Source of the DNA: Planctomycetota bacterium
Lineage (GTDB): Bacteria; Planctomycetota; Phycisphaerae; Sedimentisphaerales; Anaerobacaceae
Assembly: GCA_023481165.1 (NCBI GenBank)
Contig: JAMCWO010000122.1
Coordinates: forward strand, 1 to 40,173
Length of the DNA stretch: 40,173 nt
Direction: 5' to 3'
Made by a program: the position numbers and the translations under genes. Within the stretch, counting starts at the first letter, position 1. Each line of letters starts with the position of its first letter. Positions 8,909 through 40,173 of the stretch are shown here, one piece after another. The notes beneath the pieces were generated by a model that was not told where the DNA came from, ran no database searches, and was given only the letters and a program-made list of their open reading frames with translations.

Positions 8909-9118
8909 CTCTTGCTTCCGCTTTCCAATCATAAATCATGAATCCGAGGGGCTCTGCCTCAGAGCAGACTGTCCCCCCATATAGGGGCCGTGTTGCACGA
9001 ATTGTGCCGAAATTCTGTGCGCGGGCGAGGCCCGAACCTCGCGTAACTCCTTATGCCCGAAGGAATAAAGAATTTCTCGCACGCGGGGTGTTCTACCTTT
9101 TCGACTGTTGCACAAACG
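8909..9118 (+). repeat. Module B, copy 1 (~210 bp, second copy at 30619)
   Basis: This begins CTCTTGCTTCCG and ends GTTGCACAAACG. It matches 30619-30821 over its whole length with scattered differences. A hairpin at its front is kept by compensatory change: GCTCTG/CAGAGC here and GCTCCG/CGGGGC in the other copy, where one T-A pair becomes C-G. A second hairpin, GCGAGG/CCTCGC, follows. GTTGCAC occurs twice in direct orientation (8992 and 9107). It directly follows the short-repeat array in both loci. No open reading frame is shared by both copies. It may be a small structured RNA or a miniature mobile element. Confidence 0.65.
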
Positions 9119-9205
9119 GTACGCGGAAGGCCGGAGGCGCTAGGCTATAGGCCGGAGGGCAGACCGCCTACCGACTACCGATCTTTGAATCGGGAGTCGG
9201 AGGGC

Positions 9206-9251
9206 ACCATACTCAATTGGGGGCCGCAAAAAGTAAGATGCCCCCGGAATT
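9206..9251 (+). repeat. REP-like 46-bp end, left of element A1
   Basis: This runs from ACCATACTCAATT to CCCCCGGAATT. Similar copies lie at 12394-12439 in the same orientation and at 9681-9726 in inverted orientation. The last one pairs with this copy as ~46-bp terminal inverted repeats around element A1. The style recalls repeats mobilised by REP-associated (Y1) transposases, but no such transposase is in the window. Confidence 0.6.
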
Positions 9252-9252
9252 A

Positions 9253-9603
9253 AGAGGCGGTTCAGGGTGTGGGAATGTTGGGATTGTTCCAGGCACAGGG
9301 AGCCGGTGAGTCGGACGCGTCGGTCCGTCTGTGTGTAAGATCACACGTGCCCGGAAGGAGAAGAGACCGGGCACAAGCGGATGAGGCCGGAATCAGGAAG
9401 GCGAAGCCTGCAATGAGACTCCTTCCGCAGGAATCCGCTTATGGGCCGTCTGCAAAAGGGTTTCGGCTCATGAACCGCCTCCGGAGAACGTCGCAAGTGC
9501 ACGCGACGTTGCCCGCAGCGCCGCTGCGCGTCGGGGTTGGGAGCTGGACCGGTGGCGGGTCCGTGCGTAGCGTCCACACCCCTGAACCGCCCTTGTGGGT
9601 ATG
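9253..9603 (+). repeat. Structured element A, copy 1 (candidate noncoding RNA or MITE)
   Basis: A ~350-bp sequence repeated at 12511-12863. Ends pair: GGCGGTTCA (9256-9264) with TGAACCGCC (9583-9591). Internal helices in order are GTGCCCGG/CCGGGCAC (9347-9354, 9367-9374), AAGCGGAT/ATCCGCTT (9375-9382, 9433-9440) enclosing GGAAGG/CCTTCC, ATGGGCCG/CGGCTCAT (9441-9448, 9464-9471) and AACGTCGC/GCGACGTT (9487-9494, 9503-9510). The last helix is maintained in copy 2 by a compensatory G-C to C-G swap. There is no conserved reading frame. GTGTG after the 5' arm and the GAACCGCC near the end recall group II intron 5' and domain V motifs, but no reverse transcriptase is present. Confidence 0.6.
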
Positions 9604-9680
9604 TTCGCGGGCGTGGCTTTAAAGTGTGAGGGAACCATCGTGGTATGCGAAGCAAGGAGGCATTATGAATTCCGGGGACA

Positions 9681-9726
9681 AATTCCGGGGGCATCTTACT
9701 TATTTCGTCCCCGTATTGAGTATGGC
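9681..9726 (-). repeat. REP-like 46-bp end, right of element A1, inverted
   Basis: This is the inverted counterpart of 9206-9251, running AATTCCGGGGGCATC to TTGAGTATGGC. It is followed by short tandem pieces CCCCGAATTCCC (9729-9757) that abut the IS30 remnant. Together the two ends bound a ~520-bp unit. Confidence 0.6.
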
Positions 9727-9756
9727 GTCCCCGAATTCCCCGTCCCCGAATTCCCC

Positions 9757-10092
9757 GTCGCGGCGCGGCTCCGACAGACCCTCCGAAAACTCCCCGCCGC
9801 GAAACGCCGCAGCCTGACGCTGGACAATGGCCATGAGTTCGCCCGCCCGCTCGAATTGGAGAAAAAGCTGGAGCTACCGATCTACTTCGGCCATCCTTAT
9901 CATGCGTGGGAACGCGGCACCAACGAGAACACCAACGGCCTCTTACGCCAGTATCTGCCCAAAGGCACCGACCTGAGCCAGATCACGGAGGAACAATTGC
10001 GCTCTCATGTCCGCCAAATCAACCACCGGCCCCGTAAATGCCTCGGCTTTCAAACGGCTTTCGAGGTCTTCCACCTCCAGCCATCGGGATAG
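9757..10092 (+). pseudogene. IS30-family transposase remnant (C-terminal part)
   Basis: The reading frame encodes ~110 recognisable residues: LTLDNGHEFA (second catalytic Asp of DDE), PIYFGHPYHAWERGTNENTNGLLRQYLPKGTDL (with the catalytic Glu) and the tail INHRPRKCLGFQTAFEVF. This is the classic end of IS30 transposases. The N-terminal HTH domains and the first catalytic Asp are missing: upstream the frame runs into REP-like repeats rather than transposase sequence. It is therefore a decayed insertion sequence, cut on its 5' side and not functional. Confidence 0.85.
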
Positions 10093-10195
10093 CTCTTGCC
10101 CCCGACTCCTACGTTCGATACTCTGGCAGCGCCGGCGCGGAGGATAGGGCCCTGCTGGGAAGCAACCCGAGCGCCGCGCCGGCCCAGGGACAGGA

Positions 10196-10223
10196 GGCGA
10201 CGTTGTATCGATACTACGTCGCC
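10196..10223. repeat. 28-bp near-perfect palindrome centred on ATCGAT
   Basis: GGCGACGT and ACGTCGCC arms enclose GTATCGATAC; 26 of 28 positions are symmetrical, with one T/T mismatch pair. It lies 104 bp past the IS30 remnant, in the 390-bp gene-free stretch before the propeller gene. It could be an IS end, a recombinase or regulator site, or a terminator hairpin without a clear U-tract. Nothing else is recognisable in 10093-10482. Confidence 0.5.
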
Positions 10224-10482
10224 TTCTCCTCTCTACCCGCCTCTGGCCCAAAGCGTTAAATCCCAGGGGTCTGGGGAGCGTCCCCAGAAGTATCGAAGGA
10301 AACAGCAACCGGCTGGCTCGCGATTGTCACGCCGTGTTGCGCTTCGCGTGTTAATGCGCCGAATCAAGAGGGAAGTTGGGGCCCCTACCCATCTCAGACG
10401 GGAATTCCCTATGGATCGGGAGCCCGGCTCAGCGAGAGGTCCCGATTTCTGCGGAACACGCGATACGGTGGGAGAACTAGTT

Positions 10483-12279
10483 GTGAAGGAATGGATCATG
10501 ATAGGACTGGCAACAGGAGTCACGTTCTTATCCCTGTCCTGCGCCCTGGCGCACCGGCCCACACCAGCGGTATCGGTCCGAGAGCAGAGGCTGGGAGACG
10601 TGCCGGACGATCGGCACCACGAGACCATCACTCGGCAGGGACGGCACATCGCCTGGGTCGTCCGGCGCGGCGTCAAGTCCATGGCCGTCATCGATGGCCA
10701 AGAGGGGACGGCGTACGAAGAGATACTCGCCCCAAGATCTGAGGAACCCGCGGAGTTCATCGAGGGCTTGAAGCAGGTGCTCGGGGAAGAACTTGTCGCA
10801 CGCTACCAGCTCTTGCCCCCCTGGCTGGATGGGAGCCCGGATGGCCAGCGCCTGGCTTACCGGGCCAGACGAGATGGCCAATGGCATGCGGTCGTGGACG
10901 GCAGGGAAGGGGCTCCATATGATGAGATTGGCTCGGTCGGATTCACGCCGGACAGTCTTCACGTCTGGTATCGAGCCAGAAGAGGCGAGAAGTGTGTCAT
11001 GGTGATGAACGAAAGGGAAGGTCCGGAATACGACGAGTGGGCGAACGGACCTTGGTTTAGCCAAGAAGGGGGTCATGTGGCCTGTGTCGCCGTGAGGGCC
11101 GAGAAACAGATTCCGGTCGTGGACGGGAAGGACGGGGACCCTCACGATTTGATTCGCCGCATCGTGTTCAGCCCGGATGGCAGACGCTCGGGCTGGATCG
11201 CTCGAGATGACGACCGGTGGTTCGTCATCGTTGACGGTCAGACGGGCCCGGCCTATAGTTGGATTGGCGGCCTGGAATTCAGTCCGGACGGACAACATAT
11301 CGCCTACCGGGCGATGAGGGGCACCCGGTCTGTTATGGTTGTGGACCACCAGGAAGGACCCGAATATGACGTGGTCGAGACTCGTCAGGAGTACGGCGGG
11401 TCCGCTTTCAGTCCGAAGGGCAATCGAGTGGTCTATCAGGCGGCTACCAGAAACGGAAGGTCGCGGATCGTTGTGGATGGACGGGAGGGCCCGGAATTCG
11501 ATCTGACGCACAGTTGGGGATTCAGCCCGGACGGCAGGCACGTGGTGTATGAAGCGCGGCGCGGTCAAAAGCAAGTCATAGTCGTGGACGGCGAGCTTGG
11601 GCCTGAGTACGATTTGGCGTGCGAATTCCGTTTCAGCCCGGATGGTGGGCGGTGGGCGTATGAAGCCACGGCGGGACAGAGGTCCCTCGTGGTCGTGGAC
11701 GGTCGATCCGGGCCTGCCCATAATGGCGAGGTCTTTAGTCTGACGTTCAGCCCGGACGGCAGACGTATAGCGTACTGGGCGTGCGACAACGGAAACATGT
11801 CAGCAATCATAGACGGCCAGGCTGGACCCGCGTACGAGGATATCGGGTATCTGAAGTTCAGCCCCAATAGCGAGCGAGTTGCCTATTACGCGAAACAGGG
11901 TGACAAGTGGTTCATGGTCGTGGACGGCCGACCCGGGTCCGGTTTCGACGAGATCTCCCGCCCGGTTTTCAGCCCCGACAGTAAACGTGTGGCCCACTGG
12001 GCGAAAACGGGCGAGATGGAACACATGGTTCTGGATGGCCGGCCCGGACCCGCATACGACAAGGTTGACGCGCGTGTCCCCGTGTTCAGCGACGACAGCG
12101 GACATCTGGCGTACCGGGCCGAGAGGGATGGCAAGCATCTTGTCGTCGTGGACGGTCAAGAGGGGCCCGCGTACGACCGCATCATCAGCACGCGAACGGT
12201 TCTCCAGGCCGGTGGAACACTCGAGTATCTGGCCGTGAGGGAAGCTTCGCTCTACAAGGTCACGGTAGTCGCACCATGA
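10483..12279 (+). CDS. Secreted protein with 13 WD40/PD40-like beta-propeller repeats
   Basis: 598 residues from a GTG at 10483 with GGAG eight bases upstream; the ATG at 10498 is a near alternative. A signal peptide (IGLATGVTFLSLSCALA) is followed by about 13 repeats of ~42-45 residues. Each repeat has (V/I)VDGxxGPxYD then FSPDGxx(I/V)AYxAxR, as in TolB/PD40 beta-propellers. It should fold as one or two propellers outside the cytoplasm; no catalytic motif is seen. Unlike usual WD40 blades, every unit carries the VDG-x-x-G-P signature. The gene stands alone between mobile-element debris and the two copies of element A. Function unknown. Confidence 0.8.
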   Translation: MKEWIMIGLATGVTFLSLSCALAHRPTPAVSVREQRLGDVPDDRHHETITRQGRHIAWVVRRGVKSMAVIDGQEGTAYEEILAPRSEEPAEFIEGLKQVLGEELVARYQLLPPWLDGSPDGQRLAYRARRDGQWHAVVDGREGAPYDEIGSVGFTPDSLHVWYRARRGEKCVMVMNEREGPEYDEWANGPWFSQEGGHVACVAVRAEKQIPVVDGKDGDPHDLIRRIVFSPDGRRSGWIARDDDRWFVIVDGQTGPAYSWIGGLEFSPDGQHIAYRAMRGTRSVMVVDHQEGPEYDVVETRQEYGGSAFSPKGNRVVYQAATRNGRSRIVVDGREGPEFDLTHSWGFSPDGRHVVYEARRGQKQVIVVDGELGPEYDLACEFRFSPDGGRWAYEATAGQRSLVVVDGRSGPAHNGEVFSLTFSPDGRRIAYWACDNGNMSAIIDGQAGPAYEDIGYLKFSPNSERVAYYAKQGDKWFMVVDGRPGSGFDEISRPVFSPDSKRVAHWAKTGEMEHMVLDGRPGPAYDKVDARVPVFSDDSGHLAYRAERDGKHLVVVDGQEGPAYDRIISTRTVLQAGGTLEYLAVREASLYKVTVVAP

Positions 12280-12393
12280 GAAGAGGACCATCCAGACGAC
12301 CTGGAGCGAGAATCCGGGGACATCTATGAGCAAGCCGTTGTCAAGACGGTCGCGGGATTTTTTCGCGGGAATTCCACACATCTATTCGGCGTC

Positions 12394-12439
12394 ACCATAC
12401 TCAATTGGGGGCCGAAATAAATAAGAGGTCCCCGCAATT
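12394..12439 (+). repeat. REP-like 46-bp end upstream of element A2
   Basis: A third copy of the ACCATACTCAATT repeat, separated from element A2 by ~70 bp of unrelated sequence. A degenerate inverted version (GGAATTCCACACATCTATT, from 12368) directly precedes it, so the pair looks like a palindromic BIME-type unit. Confidence 0.55.
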
Positions 12440-12510
12440 CAGAAGGTGCGTGCGTGACGTTGGGTGATAGTTCCCGCGGAGATGGGGCCACTGGGAAGAA
12501 CACGAAGAGA

Positions 12511-12863
12511 AGAGGCGGTTCAGGGTGCGGGAATGGTCGGACGCTTCCAGGCACAGGGAGCCGCTGAATCGGACGCGTCGGTCTGTCTGCGAGTAAGATC
12601 ACACGTGCCCGGAACCAGAAGAGACCGGGCACAAGCGGACGAGGCCGGAATCAGGAAGGCGAAGCCTCAAATCGAGACTCCTTCCGTAGAGCCTGCCCCC
12701 GCGCCGGCGGGGGAATCTGCCTATGGGCCGTCTGCAAAAGGGGTCCGGCCCATGAACCGCCTCCGGAGAACCTCGGCAGGGAACGCGAGGTCCATGGGGT
12801 CCTGGGCCAGCGGTGGGCACGTGCGCAGCGTCTACCCACTGAACCGCCCTTGTGCGGGCATGG
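12511..12863 (+). repeat. Structured element A, copy 2
   Basis: Second copy of the 9253-9603 element, in the same orientation and ~3.26 kb away. GGCGGTTCA (12514-12522) can pair with TGAACCGCC at 12840-12848 or at 12753-12761. It keeps GTGCCCGG/CCGGGCAC, GGAAGG/CCTTCC and ATGGGCCG/CGGCCCAT (all Watson-Crick here, one G-U in copy 1). It has ACCTCG/CGAGGT (12770-12775, 12786-12791) where copy 1 has ACGTCG/CGACGT. It carries a ~25-bp GC-rich hairpin insertion at ~12691-12715. The pattern of change favours selection on RNA structure over protein. Confidence 0.6.
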
Positions 12864-13087
12864 ATGGGCTGGACCGGGACCCGCATCGGGGATTATCATT
12901 GGTACCGTCAGTGGAGGTTACGCTTATGACGACAAGATATGGAGGACGAGGATACGCCTTATACTCTTGCCGACCTCAAGGAATCCTTCTCATGATCCAA
13001 GAGGGCCAGACCTCTCCTACACGCAGGCGCTGCCGTGCGGCAGGGGCTGCTTGACGGAATCGGCTGGCTGGTGATACACTGGTCCGC

Positions 13088-30618: not shown

Positions 30619-30821
30619 CTCTTGCTTCCGCATTCGTAAATCATGAATCCGAGGGGCTCCGCCTCGGGGCAGACTGTCCCTCTACCTAGGGGCCGTGTTG
30701 CACGAATCGCGCCGGAATTCTGTGCATGAGCGAGGCCCGAAAGCTCTGTAAGTCCTTGCGCTCCAAGGGATAAAGAATTCTTCGCGCGGGGTGTTTTACG
30801 TTTTCAGCCGTTGCACAAACG
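30619..30821 (+). repeat. Module B, copy 2
   Basis: Second copy of 8909-9118, from CTCTTGCTTCCG to GTTGCACAAACG, again directly downstream of the short repeats. Its front hairpin reads GCTCCG/CGGGGC. The 260 bp between it and the DUF2239 gene contain no recognisable feature except that gene's promoter. Confidence 0.65.
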
Positions 30822-31909: not shown

Positions 31910-32058
31910 CGCAAGTCTCCTTATTGGGGTTTTGAAATACCCACCATTATCCCTGCCGGCTCACGGGCCGGAAGGAGGCTTGTTACATAGTCTCAGCTTA
32001 CTCCATTCGGGGTCGAAATAGATGTGATGTGCCCGGAATTCTCGTGGTGGACCCGATC

Positions 32059-36003: not shown

Positions 36004-39000
36004 ATGAACCGATGGGTGCTGTCTGTCATACTCGCGGCGATGATGCCTCTGACGGTCTGGGGGGCGATCGTCTACTCCGGCTCGCAGAATGTGGTGATCC
36101 AACTGAGCCCCATGAATTCCATGTCTTCCATGGGGATCAACCTGGCTGAGCAGGGCGAGCGCTGGGATGACTTCCGGGTCGAGCTCTGGCTCGATACGGG
36201 CATGATGAACATGACCGGCATGTCGGCCATGATGGCGGACATGTCGGGGCCGTCCCTGACCATGATGACCCCGTCGAGCCGGTTGGCCCTCACGGCCCCC
36301 GGAGCCATGTTGCCTGTCGACATATCTAAAAGGATGGGGATGGACGCCGGCATGGGTATGGGAACGGGCATGGGCATGGGGATGGGAGGCATCCTCGGGT
36401 TCATGAATATGGCCGTGAATCTGCCGATGGGTTCCATGATCGGTCCGATGTCCGTCTTCCAGGATTGGGCGTATCTGTACAACGGCGGCGGGATTGATGA
36501 TGAGGGCGGCTATGTCGGGATCATGACCCCGGACGGCCGCTACGGCTGGCTCCACGTCGAGGGCCAATCCGGGATCGACACCGAGACCCACAGCGTGGTC
36601 ATCGACGGCTGGGCCTACGAGGACCGGCCGGGGGTGCCCGTGGCGGCGGGGGAGGGCCCCTGCGACTGGTTCCCGGGCGGGCCGCACAAGATGCACTGGC
36701 CCCAGGTGCCGGACTTCAGCCCCGCGGGCGTGGATGTCAGCGGCATGGGAACGGTTCTGGCGGATGATTTCAAATGCACGGCCAGCGGGCCCATCGCGCG
36801 CATTCATATCTGGGGCTCGTTTGCCCAGGATATCCTACCCGAGCGCGGCGCGGATTCCCTGGCCTTCGAGGTCAGTATCTACTCCGATGTCCCGGCCCAG
36901 CAGGGGGCCGCGAGCCGGCCGGGTACGCGCCTTTGGACCCGGACGTTCTCCCCGGGTGAGTACGCGGTTCGCCTGGTTCATGATGGGCCGGAAGGCTGGG
37001 CCGATCCGCTGCAGGACACCTATGCACGGGACAATCACCGGCAGGCCTACCAGTACAATTTCTGCGTGGATCAGGACGCGTTCGTGCAGCAGGAAGGGAC
37101 GATTTACTGGCTGGTGGTCAAAGTGCTCGAATCGGTCGACGCCGCGTACCGCTTCGGCTGGAAGAGCACGGGTCCTGAATTGCGCTGGAACGATGATGCG
37201 GTGTGCCTTGCGCCCGACGGCAGTTGGCGAACGCTGGCCTATCCGACCGGCCATGAGTACGCGGGTCAGGCGCTCGATCTGGCCTTCGTCATCGACAGCG
37301 GACGGGACTTGCAGGCCCGGTACGATCTGGGCGATGCGCCCGATAGCTCCAACAGCCTGGGCACGGAGATGACCGCCTATCCGAAGGGTGGTCCGCCGAG
37401 CGTGGCGGCCAATTTCCCGACGGTGTACCAGGCCGGGTCGCCGCCCTATGGGCCGCTCCATCTCGGCCCCAAGGACCGGGCGTTCCTGGGCTATGGGGTC
37501 ACACTGGAAAACGAGGCGGATATCGGGCCGGATGTGGACCCGTCGAACAATCTCGACCCGCCGGCCGATGCGCCGGACGCGGATGGCTCGGATGACGGTG
37601 TGATCGTGCCCCTGGCCCTGCCGGAGGCCAAGGCGGCCACGTTTGACTACGTCGTAACGGTGATCAACCCGGCGGCGATGCACCTGTACGTCAACGTGTG
37701 GTTCGATTGGAACCGCGATGGCGATTGGGACGATACGATGACCTGCCCCGATGGCGCGGAAGCCCCCGAGTGGGCCGTTCAGAATCAGGAGCTGAATCTG
37801 CCGGGGATCGGGCCGCACACTGTGGCGACTCCCTCCTTCCGGTCCTGGCATCCGAGCACACAGGGCGACCTCGATCCCATCTGGATGCGGATTACTCTGT
37901 CGGATACTCCCTGGGATCCTGCCTTCGGCGCCGGCGGCGCGGGGCCCGCGAATGGCTACGGCGCGGGCGAGACCGAGGACTACTACTTCCAGCCGAAGAA
38001 CGAGCCTGCGCCGGCGACTCGCGATTGGGGCGATGCCCCAGGCACGCGCACGAGCGGCTATCCGACGCTGGCGGAGCACAGCGGTGCTCACCACACGATT
38101 GCCGGGCCGTGGTTGGGCGATGAGTTCGGCGGCCCGGATGCAGAGTCGGATGGCCAGCCGGACCCTAACGCGCTGGGCGACGATCTCCATGACAGCGATG
38201 ATGAGGACGGTGTGTGGATTCCTCCGCTGATACAGGGAGAGCTGGCGATCCTCACGGTGAGCGTGGGCGGCGGCGGGGGCATCGTGCAGGGTTGGATCGA
38301 CTTCAACGGCGATGGCGCCTGGCAGGATGCCGAGCAGGTGTTCAACGGCTATCTGCCCGACGGCACCCACACCATCCCGGTATCCGTGCCCCCGGATGCG
38401 GTGGTCGGCCAGAGTTTTGCGCGGTTCCGCATCAGTACCCAAGGCGGTCTGGAGGCCGAGGGCCCCGCCGCCAACGGCGAGGTAGAGGACTACGATGTCT
38501 CGATCCGCGCAGCGCCGCCCCAGTTGAAGCGGATCCAATGGCCGGACCTGACGTTCAACGGGATCGACATCCGCGTGGACAACAGCGACGGCAAGACCCG
38601 CCGGCTGGCTGATGACTTCAAGTGTACCGCTTCCAACCGGATCACCGAAGTGAGCCTGTGGGGCTCGTGGAAGAACGATCGCCAGGGCAAGATTCAGAAG
38701 ATCCATTTGAGCGTCTATGCGGACGATCCGGCCGGCGCAGCCGGATTTGACAAGCAGAATCGTTTCTCCAAGCCCGCCCCGGACGTTCTGTGGTCCCGGT
38801 CCTTCGGCCCCACGGAATTCACCGAGACGCCGTACCACGTCGTGCGTGATGTCGGCGAGTGGTGGTGGGACCCGGCCACCGGGCAATTGGCGGCCGGCGG
38901 CGATACGGAGGTTTGGCGCGTCGATATCTCCATCAGTCCGCAGGATGCCTTCCTGCAGCAAGGGTCGCCGGCCAATCCCATCATCTACTGGCTGATGGTG

Positions 39001-40173
39001 CGCGTCGAGACGACCGAGGGGCAGTTCGGCTGGAAGACCCGCCGCTGGCCCGACCACTACATGGACGATGCGGTGTGGGATTTGGCCGCCCAGAAGCCGG
39101 CCGCGTGGAAGGAGCTGCGCTACCCGAAGAGTCATCCGTACTACGAAGCCCAGCAGAACTCGATCGACTTGGCCTTCGCGCTGACCTATACGGCGGAGGT
39201 CGTCGAGCATCCCACGACCAGGCCCGGGAGCGTGACGCAGTGCCCGGTCGTGGAAACGCAGTGTCCGGCGGTGGAGACTCGTTGTCCGGCGGTCAAAACC
39301 CAGTGCCCGACGTACGCGACGCGGTGCCCGACGGTAAGGACCCGGTGTCCCGCGACCGCGACAAAATGCCCGCCGGTTGCGACCCGCTGCCCCACAGTCA
39401 AGACCAAATGCCCGACAACCGCCACCCGCTGCCCGCCGACCAGGACGAAGTGCCCGGCGATGGCGACGCGCTGCCCCGAGTCGCTGACGAAGTGCCCGCC
39501 GACGCCCACCAAGTGTCAGGTCGTGGAGACCCAATGCCCGGCGGTGGCCACGAAGTGTCCGGTCTCGCTGACCAAGTGCCCCGAAGCGCCGACGAAATGT
39601 CCGGCGGTGACGACGAAGTGCCCGCCGACGGTGACCCAATGCTCGACGGTTGCCGGGGCGGCGACCCAGTGCCCGGCCGTGCTGACTCAATGTCCGCCGG
39701 TGACAACGCGGTGCCCTGAATCTCTCACCAAGTGCCCGCCGACCGCGACCCAGTGTCAGGTTGTGGAGACCCAATGCCCGGCCGTGGCCACGAAATGTCC
39801 GGCCGTGCTGACCAAATGTCCTGAATCCCTGACGAAATGTCCGCCGACGGCGACCAACTGCCAGGCGGTGGACACCCAGTGCCCGGCGGTGGAGACGAAG
39901 TGTCCCCCGGCGGCTACGAAATGCCCGGTTTACGCCACCCGGTGCCCGGAGGTGCTGACCAAGTGTCCGCCGACGGCGACCCAATGCCAGGTGGTCGAGA
40001 CCCAGTGTCCGGCGGTGGAAACGAAATGTCCGGCTGCGCTGACCAAGTGCCCCGAGTCGCTGACGAAGTGCCCGCCGACGCCGACCAACTGCCAGGCCGT
40101 GGATACGCAGTGCCCCGCCGTAGCGACGAAATGCCCGCCGGTCACGACAAAGTGTCCTCCCACGGCAACTCAA
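36004..40173 (+). CDS. Large secreted multidomain protein with Cys-heptad repeats, 3' end outside window
   Basis: At least 1390 residues, with no stop before the edge. A signal peptide (~1-20) is followed by a Met-rich segment (~35-150: MGMDAGMGMGTGMGMGMGG). A DDFKCTAS module occurs twice (~250-400 and ~868-1055), each with WGS, WSRSF/WTRTF, xDAFxQQ, IYWLxV and FGWKxxx..DDAVxxL. Between them lie two GEVEDY-type domains (~520-660 ending GAGETEDYYFQP; ~700-836 ending NGEVEDYDVSI). From residue 1078 to the edge there are 44 tandem heptads of pattern T-[KRQN]-C-P-x-x-x. All parts point to an extracellular surface or matrix protein that may be disulfide cross-linked. No enzyme motif is seen. The reading frame was checked by hand. 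Confidence 0.85.
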   Translation, partial: MNRWVLSVILAAMMPLTVWGAIVYSGSQNVVIQLSPMNSMSSMGINLAEQGERWDDFRVELWLDTGMMNMTGMSAMMADMSGPSLTMMTPSSRLALTAPGAMLPVDISKRMGMDAGMGMGTGMGMGMGGILGFMNMAVNLPMGSMIGPMSVFQDWAYLYNGGGIDDEGGYVGIMTPDGRYGWLHVEGQSGIDTETHSVVIDGWAYEDRPGVPVAAGEGPCDWFPGGPHKMHWPQVPDFSPAGVDVSGMGTVLADDFKCTASGPIARIHIWGSFAQDILPERGADSLAFEVSIYSDVPAQQGAASRPGTRLWTRTFSPGEYAVRLVHDGPEGWADPLQDTYARDNHRQAYQYNFCVDQDAFVQQEGTIYWLVVKVLESVDAAYRFGWKSTGPELRWNDDAVCLAPDGSWRTLAYPTGHEYAGQALDLAFVIDSGRDLQARYDLGDAPDSSNSLGTEMTAYPKGGPPSVAANFPTVYQAGSPPYGPLHLGPKDRAFLGYGVTLENEADIGPDVDPSNNLDPPADAPDADGSDDGVIVPLALPEAKAATFDYVVTVINPAAMHLYVNVWFDWNRDGDWDDTMTCPDGAEAPEWAVQNQELNLPGIGPHTVATPSFRSWHPSTQGDLDPIWMRITLSDTPWDPAFGAGGAGPANGYGAGETEDYYFQPKNEPAPATRDWGDAPGTRTSGYPTLAEHSGAHHTIAGPWLGDEFGGPDAESDGQPDPNALGDDLHDSDDEDGVWIPPLIQGELAILTVSVGGGGGIVQGWIDFNGDGAWQDAEQVFNGYLPDGTHTIPVSVPPDAVVGQSFARFRISTQGGLEAEGPAANGEVEDYDVSIRAAPPQLKRIQWPDLTFNGIDIRVDNSDGKTRRLADDFKCTASNRITEVSLWGSWKNDRQGKIQKIHLSVYADDPAGAAGFDKQNRFSKPAPDVLWSRSFGPTEFTETPYHVVRDVGEWWWDPATGQLAAGGDTEVWRVDISISPQDAFLQQGSPANPIIYWLMVRVETTEGQFGWKTRRWPDHYMDDAVWDLAAQKPAAWKELRYPKSHPYYEAQQNSIDLAFALTYTAEVVEHPTTRPGSVTQCPVVETQCPAVETRCPAVKTQCPTYATRCPTVRTRCPATATKCPPVATRCPTVKTKCPTTATRCPPTRTKCPAMATRCPESLTKCPPTPTKCQVVETQCPAVATKCPVSLTKCPEAPTKCPAVTTKCPPTVTQCSTVAGAATQCPAVLTQCPPVTTRCPESLTKCPPTATQCQVVETQCPAVATKCPAVLTKCPESLTKCPPTATNCQAVDTQCPAVETKCPPAATKCPVYATRCPEVLTKCPPTATQCQVVETQCPAVETKCPAALTKCPESLTKCPPTPTNCQAVDTQCPAVATKCPPVTTKCPPTATQ
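39235..40173 (+). repeat. 21-bp tandem repeat encoding T-x-C-P-x-x-x heptads
   Basis: 44 complete units and the start of a 45th, all in frame within the large gene. Only one unit (the 20th) breaks the length, with three added residues (GAA). Third-position bases vary freely (TGC/TGT, CCG/CCC/CCT, ACG/ACC), so the protein sequence rather than the DNA is conserved. The array continues past the right edge. Confidence 0.92.

Follow-up and report, generated by a model that had tools for sequence, protein, structure and literature searches.

What kind of element gave rise to two similar, hairpin-rich sequences on contig JAMCWO010000122.1 of a Planctomycetota bacterium, analysed here over its whole stretch of 40,173 nucleotides (the window)? 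The original prediction read this pair, called Element A, as a structured noncoding RNA or a mobile element carrying one, based on helices that recur in the same order and are preserved by paired changes. Our comparisons suggest that Element A is probably a family of non-autonomous elements resembling miniature inverted-repeat transposable elements (MITEs), with a conserved cloverleaf of hairpins, which is moved in trans and, in related genomes, at least partly by ISL3-type transposases.

Copies, ends and mobility of Element A

A BLAST search with copy 1 returned 58 matches in its own genome, a 6.05 Mb Phycisphaerae metagenome-assembled genome (MAG), and a 17-nt motif from the 5′ end was found 38 times (exact or with one mismatch) compared to once for the reversed control. 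The likeness of the two window copies, whose helices follow a common order, is therefore not due to chance. Among 60 relatives searched, matches were present in 4/8 genomes of the same genus and in one genome of another genus; a MAG from Lake K also harbours relatives of the element. The exact 17-mer AAGAGGCGGTTCAGGGG occurs in 2/298 genomes of the class, and a 19-nt end motif was found in named records mainly from Planctomycetota/Phycisphaerae MAGs, while four single matches in unrelated bacteria were taken as chance. A search of the copy flanks for a recurring neighbour protein yielded only clusters overlapping Element A itself. A phage origin was dropped, as an 18-nt end motif had no match in viral contigs.

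The two window copies contain the following features, where P1 denotes the outer helix.

9250..9661, + strand: Element A copy 1 (core and conserved 3′ tail), delimited by family alignment and flank comparison
9256..9267, + strand: copy 1, left arm of P1 and inner inverted repeat, GGCGGTTCAGGG, near invariant in the family
9347..9374, + strand: copy 1, hairpin A, GTGCCCGG..CCGGGCAC, with the conserved loop GAAnnAGAAGAGA
9375..9440, + strand: copy 1, central arm, AAGCGGAT..ATCCGCTT, enclosing small hairpin C
9398-9409, + strand: copy 1, small hairpin C, AAGGCGAAGCCT, with G-C to A-T covariation
9441..9471, + strand: copy 1, hairpin B, ATGGGCCG..CGGCTCAT, with covariation among relatives
9487..9510, + strand: copy 1, helix AACGTCGC/GCGACGTT, weakly maintained across the family
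9580..9591, + strand: copy 1, right arm of P1 and inner inverted repeat, CCCTGAACCGCC
9592..9661, + strand: copy 1, 3′ tail with AAGGAGG at its end, which may be a ribosome-binding site for an ATG at 9665
12504..12918, + strand: Element A copy 2 (core and degenerate tail)
12514..12525, + strand: copy 2, left arm of P1
12605..12632, + strand: copy 2, hairpin A
12633..12722, + strand: copy 2, central arm, with an additional GC-rich hairpin insertion near 12691-12713
12723..12753, + strand: copy 2, hairpin B, ATGGGCCG..CGGCCCAT
12839..12848, + strand: copy 2, right arm of P1, CTGAACCGCC

The two copies can be aligned end to end with several indels. Their identity is 90% in the first 163 nt and 86% in another 80 nt, with length differences in between. 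Copy 1 proved longer than first stated, since its conserved tail (GAAGTGTGAGGGAAC..GCGAAGCAAGGAGGC) extends to about 9661. The helix motifs of the original prediction lie where it had placed them: AACGTCGC at 9487 and GCGACGTT at 9503 in copy 1, corresponding to ACCTCG at 12770 and CGAGGT at 12786 in copy 2, and AAGCGGAT at 9375 and ATCCGCTT at 9433, corresponding to the wobble-containing helix of AAGCGGAC at 12633 and ATCTGCCT at 12715. The same applies to the change from G-U to G-C in hairpin B, where ATGGGCCG (9441) faces CGGCTCAT (9464) in copy 1 and ATGGGCCG (12723) faces CGGCCCAT (12746) in copy 2.

Across the family, the inner inverted repeat is near invariant, and copies with terminal inverted repeats, found in several MAGs, carry AAGAGAAGAGGCGGTTCAGGGG at both ends, with the inverted 5′ motifs spaced about 300-440 nt apart. 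Most copies in the own genome have a tail of ~70 nt that ends in AAGGAGG, often with an ATG, and in many of them this long tail replaces the right inverted repeat; others end in an inverted copy of the 5′ end. Element A thus shows the features of a MITE, namely no reading frame of its own, terminal inverted repeats (in several MAGs) and multiple dispersed copies.

In the relatives, an outer repeat, GGCTCATCCGGTTTTCGCGTACTT, was detected at 23/85 copy ends compared to 3/400 random 150-nt windows (6 or fewer mismatches of 24, ≤150 nt from the copy end). Within the genus, such outer repeats are also the boundaries of ISL3-family transposase genes: in G005, GGCTCATCCGGTTTTCGCGTACTT frames a 1.25 kb element that carries a PF01610 (DDE_Tnp_ISL3) gene, and in G002 and G007 it adjoins remnants of PF01610. 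No PF01610 gene was found in a search of G008. MITEs with ends resembling an ISL3 element are known (PMC3852290), and the corresponding match to an autonomous ISL3 element was found for Element A in relatives only.

Several observations weigh against this explanation. In the own genome, the ISL3-type repeat was found at 1/65 copy ends, and a search there for a PF01610 gene found none. A transposon with a transposase of the ISL3 family is reported to duplicate 8 bp of its target (PMC9782665), but the candidate duplications of the two complete ISL3-bounded copies matched at 3/8 and 5/8 positions and are not convincing; one further unit has CCAATTCG on both sides, but this string belongs to a common repeat. 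Furthermore, the loops and the 3′ tail are conserved in sequence beyond what a bare MITE needs. ISL3-type DDE transposases would move the copies in trans in the relatives, while those of the own genome, mostly lacking ISL3-type ends, may have spread within another carrier or represent older remnants.

Fold, covariation and the noncoding RNA alternative

The family alignment revealed a core order of P1 (GGCGGTTCAGGG/CCCTGAACCGCC), hairpin A (loop GAAnnAGAAGAGA), the central arm AAGCGGA/TCCGC enclosing hairpin C, and then hairpin B, followed by a right part that is weaker. P1 and hairpin A, together with the central arm and hairpin B, are predicted to be laid out as a four-way junction. Large insertions, which sit in the loops, make the copies vary in length. 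A palindrome, CCCAAACGCGATGCATCGCGTTTGGG, is inserted at several different sites in copies L018, L020, L021, L025, L026, L051 and L075 from two species as a nested small repeat. The Lake K copies are near-palindromes outside P1, with z about 20-26 for the left against the right half, a property that the copies of the own genome lack (z about -0.4 to 2.3).

Such an architecture could also reflect a dispersed functional noncoding RNA, whose + strand transcript would form a cloverleaf on a long stem and act in trans or as a 5′ leader. This appears unlikely. Compared to its dinucleotide shuffles, copy 1 does fold better, with z -3.1 for the + strand and -5.0 for the - strand, and the conserved loops as well as the Shine-Dalgarno-like AGGAGG and ATG closing the tail in many own-genome copies are in line with an RNA. 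However, copy 2 shows no such advantage over its shuffles (z -0.9), and the large insertions differ among copies. RNAalifold energies were -169.7 (+) and -170.6 (-), compared to column-shuffled means of -129 and -120, so that the opposite strand folds equally well. The Rfam comparison proposed by the original prediction gave no match of Element A to any covariance model, even at a permissive threshold. A group II intron was rejected, as the same search gave no intron match at this threshold; an IscB/omega-RNA (HEARO) system was rejected as well, given no Rfam match and no RRXRR domain above the cut-off in the own genome.

Covariation was then scored over 26 aligned copies in a scripted test with 500 shuffles, which ignore the relatedness of the copies. 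Two of the five best helices covaried beyond the shuffled controls: double changes were seen at three pairs of hairpin B (1/500 shuffles as high) and in nine cells of hairpin C (0/500 shuffles as high). P1, hairpin A and the central arm hardly vary and are hence uninformative.

RNA selection on the + strand should tolerate G-U more than A-C pairs. Counted over all predicted pairs, G-U to A-C stood at 70:63 for the + strand and at 78:84 for the - strand; in clean helices of filtered copies, it was 19:12 (p 0.28), or 13:9 when distinct events were counted. This filtered count was used instead of an earlier wobble count on 200 unfiltered rows, which was mostly noise; searches for hairpin B with loose regular expressions were likewise noisy for the most part. 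When the count was restricted to fewer, well-kept pairs from related sequences, it gave 15:5 (p 0.04), and from this subset there may be a weak G-U preference. The helix AACGTCGC/GCGACGTT, which is poorly kept across the family (135 paired, 6 G-U, 17 A-C and 24 other mismatches), leans in the direction opposite to the RNA expectation. With no clear G-U excess on either strand and equal folding of both strands, there is therefore no evidence of a structure acting as RNA; the hairpins are partly kept by paired changes, without a sign of RNA rather than DNA structure. Of the two options in the original prediction, the mobile element is supported by dozens of dispersed copies, the inner inverted repeats and the ISL3-type outer repeats in relatives. 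The structured noncoding RNA has covariation in two helices on its side, and strand-symmetric folding, A-C pairs about as frequent as G-U pairs and the missing Rfam match against it.

Templated correction of imperfect DNA palindromes can also give paired changes. For a MITE-like Element A, the hairpins would most likely be kept either as DNA, through a cruciform or single-strand fold that serves transposition or through such templated correction, or because read-through transcripts are made to fold harmlessly. That the family is an eroded protein-coding portion of a transposon is hardly credible: each copy is overlapped by open frames of 100-200 aa, but single-base indels are frequent, the helices are kept by double changes, and no frame is common to the copies, as already claimed from the window pair.

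Neighbouring repeats and possible recombinase-linked origins

Small repeats of a different type flank both window copies.

9192..9251, + strand: small repeat directly left of copy 1, its ends resembling those of Y1 (TIRYT-type) transposase genes
9681..9740, - strand: small TIRYT-type repeat, inverted, right of copy 1
12393..12443, + strand: small TIRYT-type repeat, left of copy 2

A fourth window copy of this 50-60 bp TIRYT-like repeat lies at 31994-32044. Together with other TIRYT-type end motifs beside further copies, mostly in consistent orientation, and Y1 genes near Element A fragments in G000 (C195, C196) and G002 (C740), the flanking repeats would fit movement by Y1 (HUH) transposases of the RAYT/TIRYT kind, making Element A a large relative of REP elements. 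We regard this as quite improbable. The Y1 genes are bounded by their own ends, GGGGACACCATAC..GTAAGGTGTCCCC, unlike those of Element A, and no Y1 transposase gene was found bounded by Element A repeats, as would be expected of a REP/RAYT system. In G002 C740, an Element A copy interrupts the Y1 gene, and the adjacency therefore looks like nesting. This locus (L146, 300-1140) comprises the end of a group II intron maturase-like gene followed by the interrupted Y1 gene. Full Y1 genes with GGGGACACCATAC..GTAAGGTGTCCCC ends are found in G000 C195 and apparently in C196.

A different origin is hinted at by one copy each in G002 and G008, in which a start codon downstream of the core opens a frame reaching PYGVG(V/I)DCHS(K/R). 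The matched DNA of the two genomes differs in a coding-like manner, at codon third positions and by one V/I first-position change, and among 99 relatives the degenerate motif was found in these two genomes only. These frames look like the start of a DEDD recombinase, with the first aspartate near residue 11, and resemble the starts of DEDD transposases such as GVDLHS in G008. The core might accordingly have been a noncoding stretch at the upstream end of a recombinase gene, working as the bridge RNA does in IS110 elements and now amplified without its gene, which we consider improbable. Both frames lose homology right past the motif and have no Pfam match. No full-length partner gene was detected in the 99 relatives or in 392 genomes of the phylum, where the motif search gave one match judged as chance. 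In addition, PF01548 and PF02371 were not found in the own genome, the IS110 genes of relatives lack Element A, and terminal inverted repeats are typically absent from IS110 elements (PMC11208160). It is more speculative still that the core once served a DEDD (RuvC-like) recombinase, now lost or rare, as a guide-like noncoding RNA, and that it then became a mobile module bearing this RNA but no gene, folded like a cloverleaf or Holliday junction and carried by other transposons.

Further repeats were observed in the window. A second family of about 190 nt, ending in GTTGCACAAACG, is present at 8926-9118 and 30631-30821 and adjoins many Element A copies on other contigs. Between 7900 and 8900, about a dozen AATTGGGTTTGTTTGTACAAC motifs with GC-rich palindromic spacers overlap the 5′ part of a long minus-strand DUF1015 gene frame, and on other contigs similar motifs occur close to copies of Element A. 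The two window copies are separated by a gene (10492-12279) that encodes about a dozen PD40/WD40-like propeller repeats, and a 21-nt periodic repeat (39235-40157) falls within a long minus-strand open frame (36835-40173).

Relation to known repeat families

Like MITEs related to ISL3 insertion sequences, for example the ISMac21-related MITE of Methanosarcina acetivorans (PMC3852290), Element A has no gene and many copies, and its 24-bp outer inverted repeat is nearly identical to that of PF01610 elements of the same genus. However, the ISMac21-related MITE measures 179 bp, compared to about 450-820 bp for Element A units with their internal hairpin cloverleaf, and the own-genome copies mostly lack ISL3 ends. 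The stem-loop repeat families including bcr1 of the Bacillus cereus group (PMC2267715) are likewise dispersed, with a conserved predicted secondary structure and a mobile-element character; compared by features rather than sequence, bcr1 is shorter (about 150-170 nt versus 310-440 nt) than Element A, which has several hairpins and inner inverted repeats. GTAG/CGTC REP and TIRYT elements (PMC3733652) are also planctomycete palindromic repeats, and small repeats of TIRYT type flank the window copies, but Element A is far larger, has other ends and contains no Y1 transposase within them. With the IS110 bridge RNA (PMC11208160), Element A shares a long structured noncoding stretch, which in two copies lies ahead of what may be the start of a DEDD gene; unlike it, Element A has inverted repeats and no recombinase gene left, and a match of its loops to target or donor is only hypothetical.

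The Element A family is ordinary in kind; what makes it interesting is how large and well conserved its fold is, together with the gene start resembling that of a DEDD recombinase. For the Phycisphaerae, it represents an unlisted repeat family of high copy number whose conserved fold is unusually large, and it illustrates that helix-preserving changes in repeated DNA can imitate an RNA signature. If the DEDD-like gene start does mark the origin of the family, Element A would also illustrate how a recombinase-linked noncoding element can outlive its gene.

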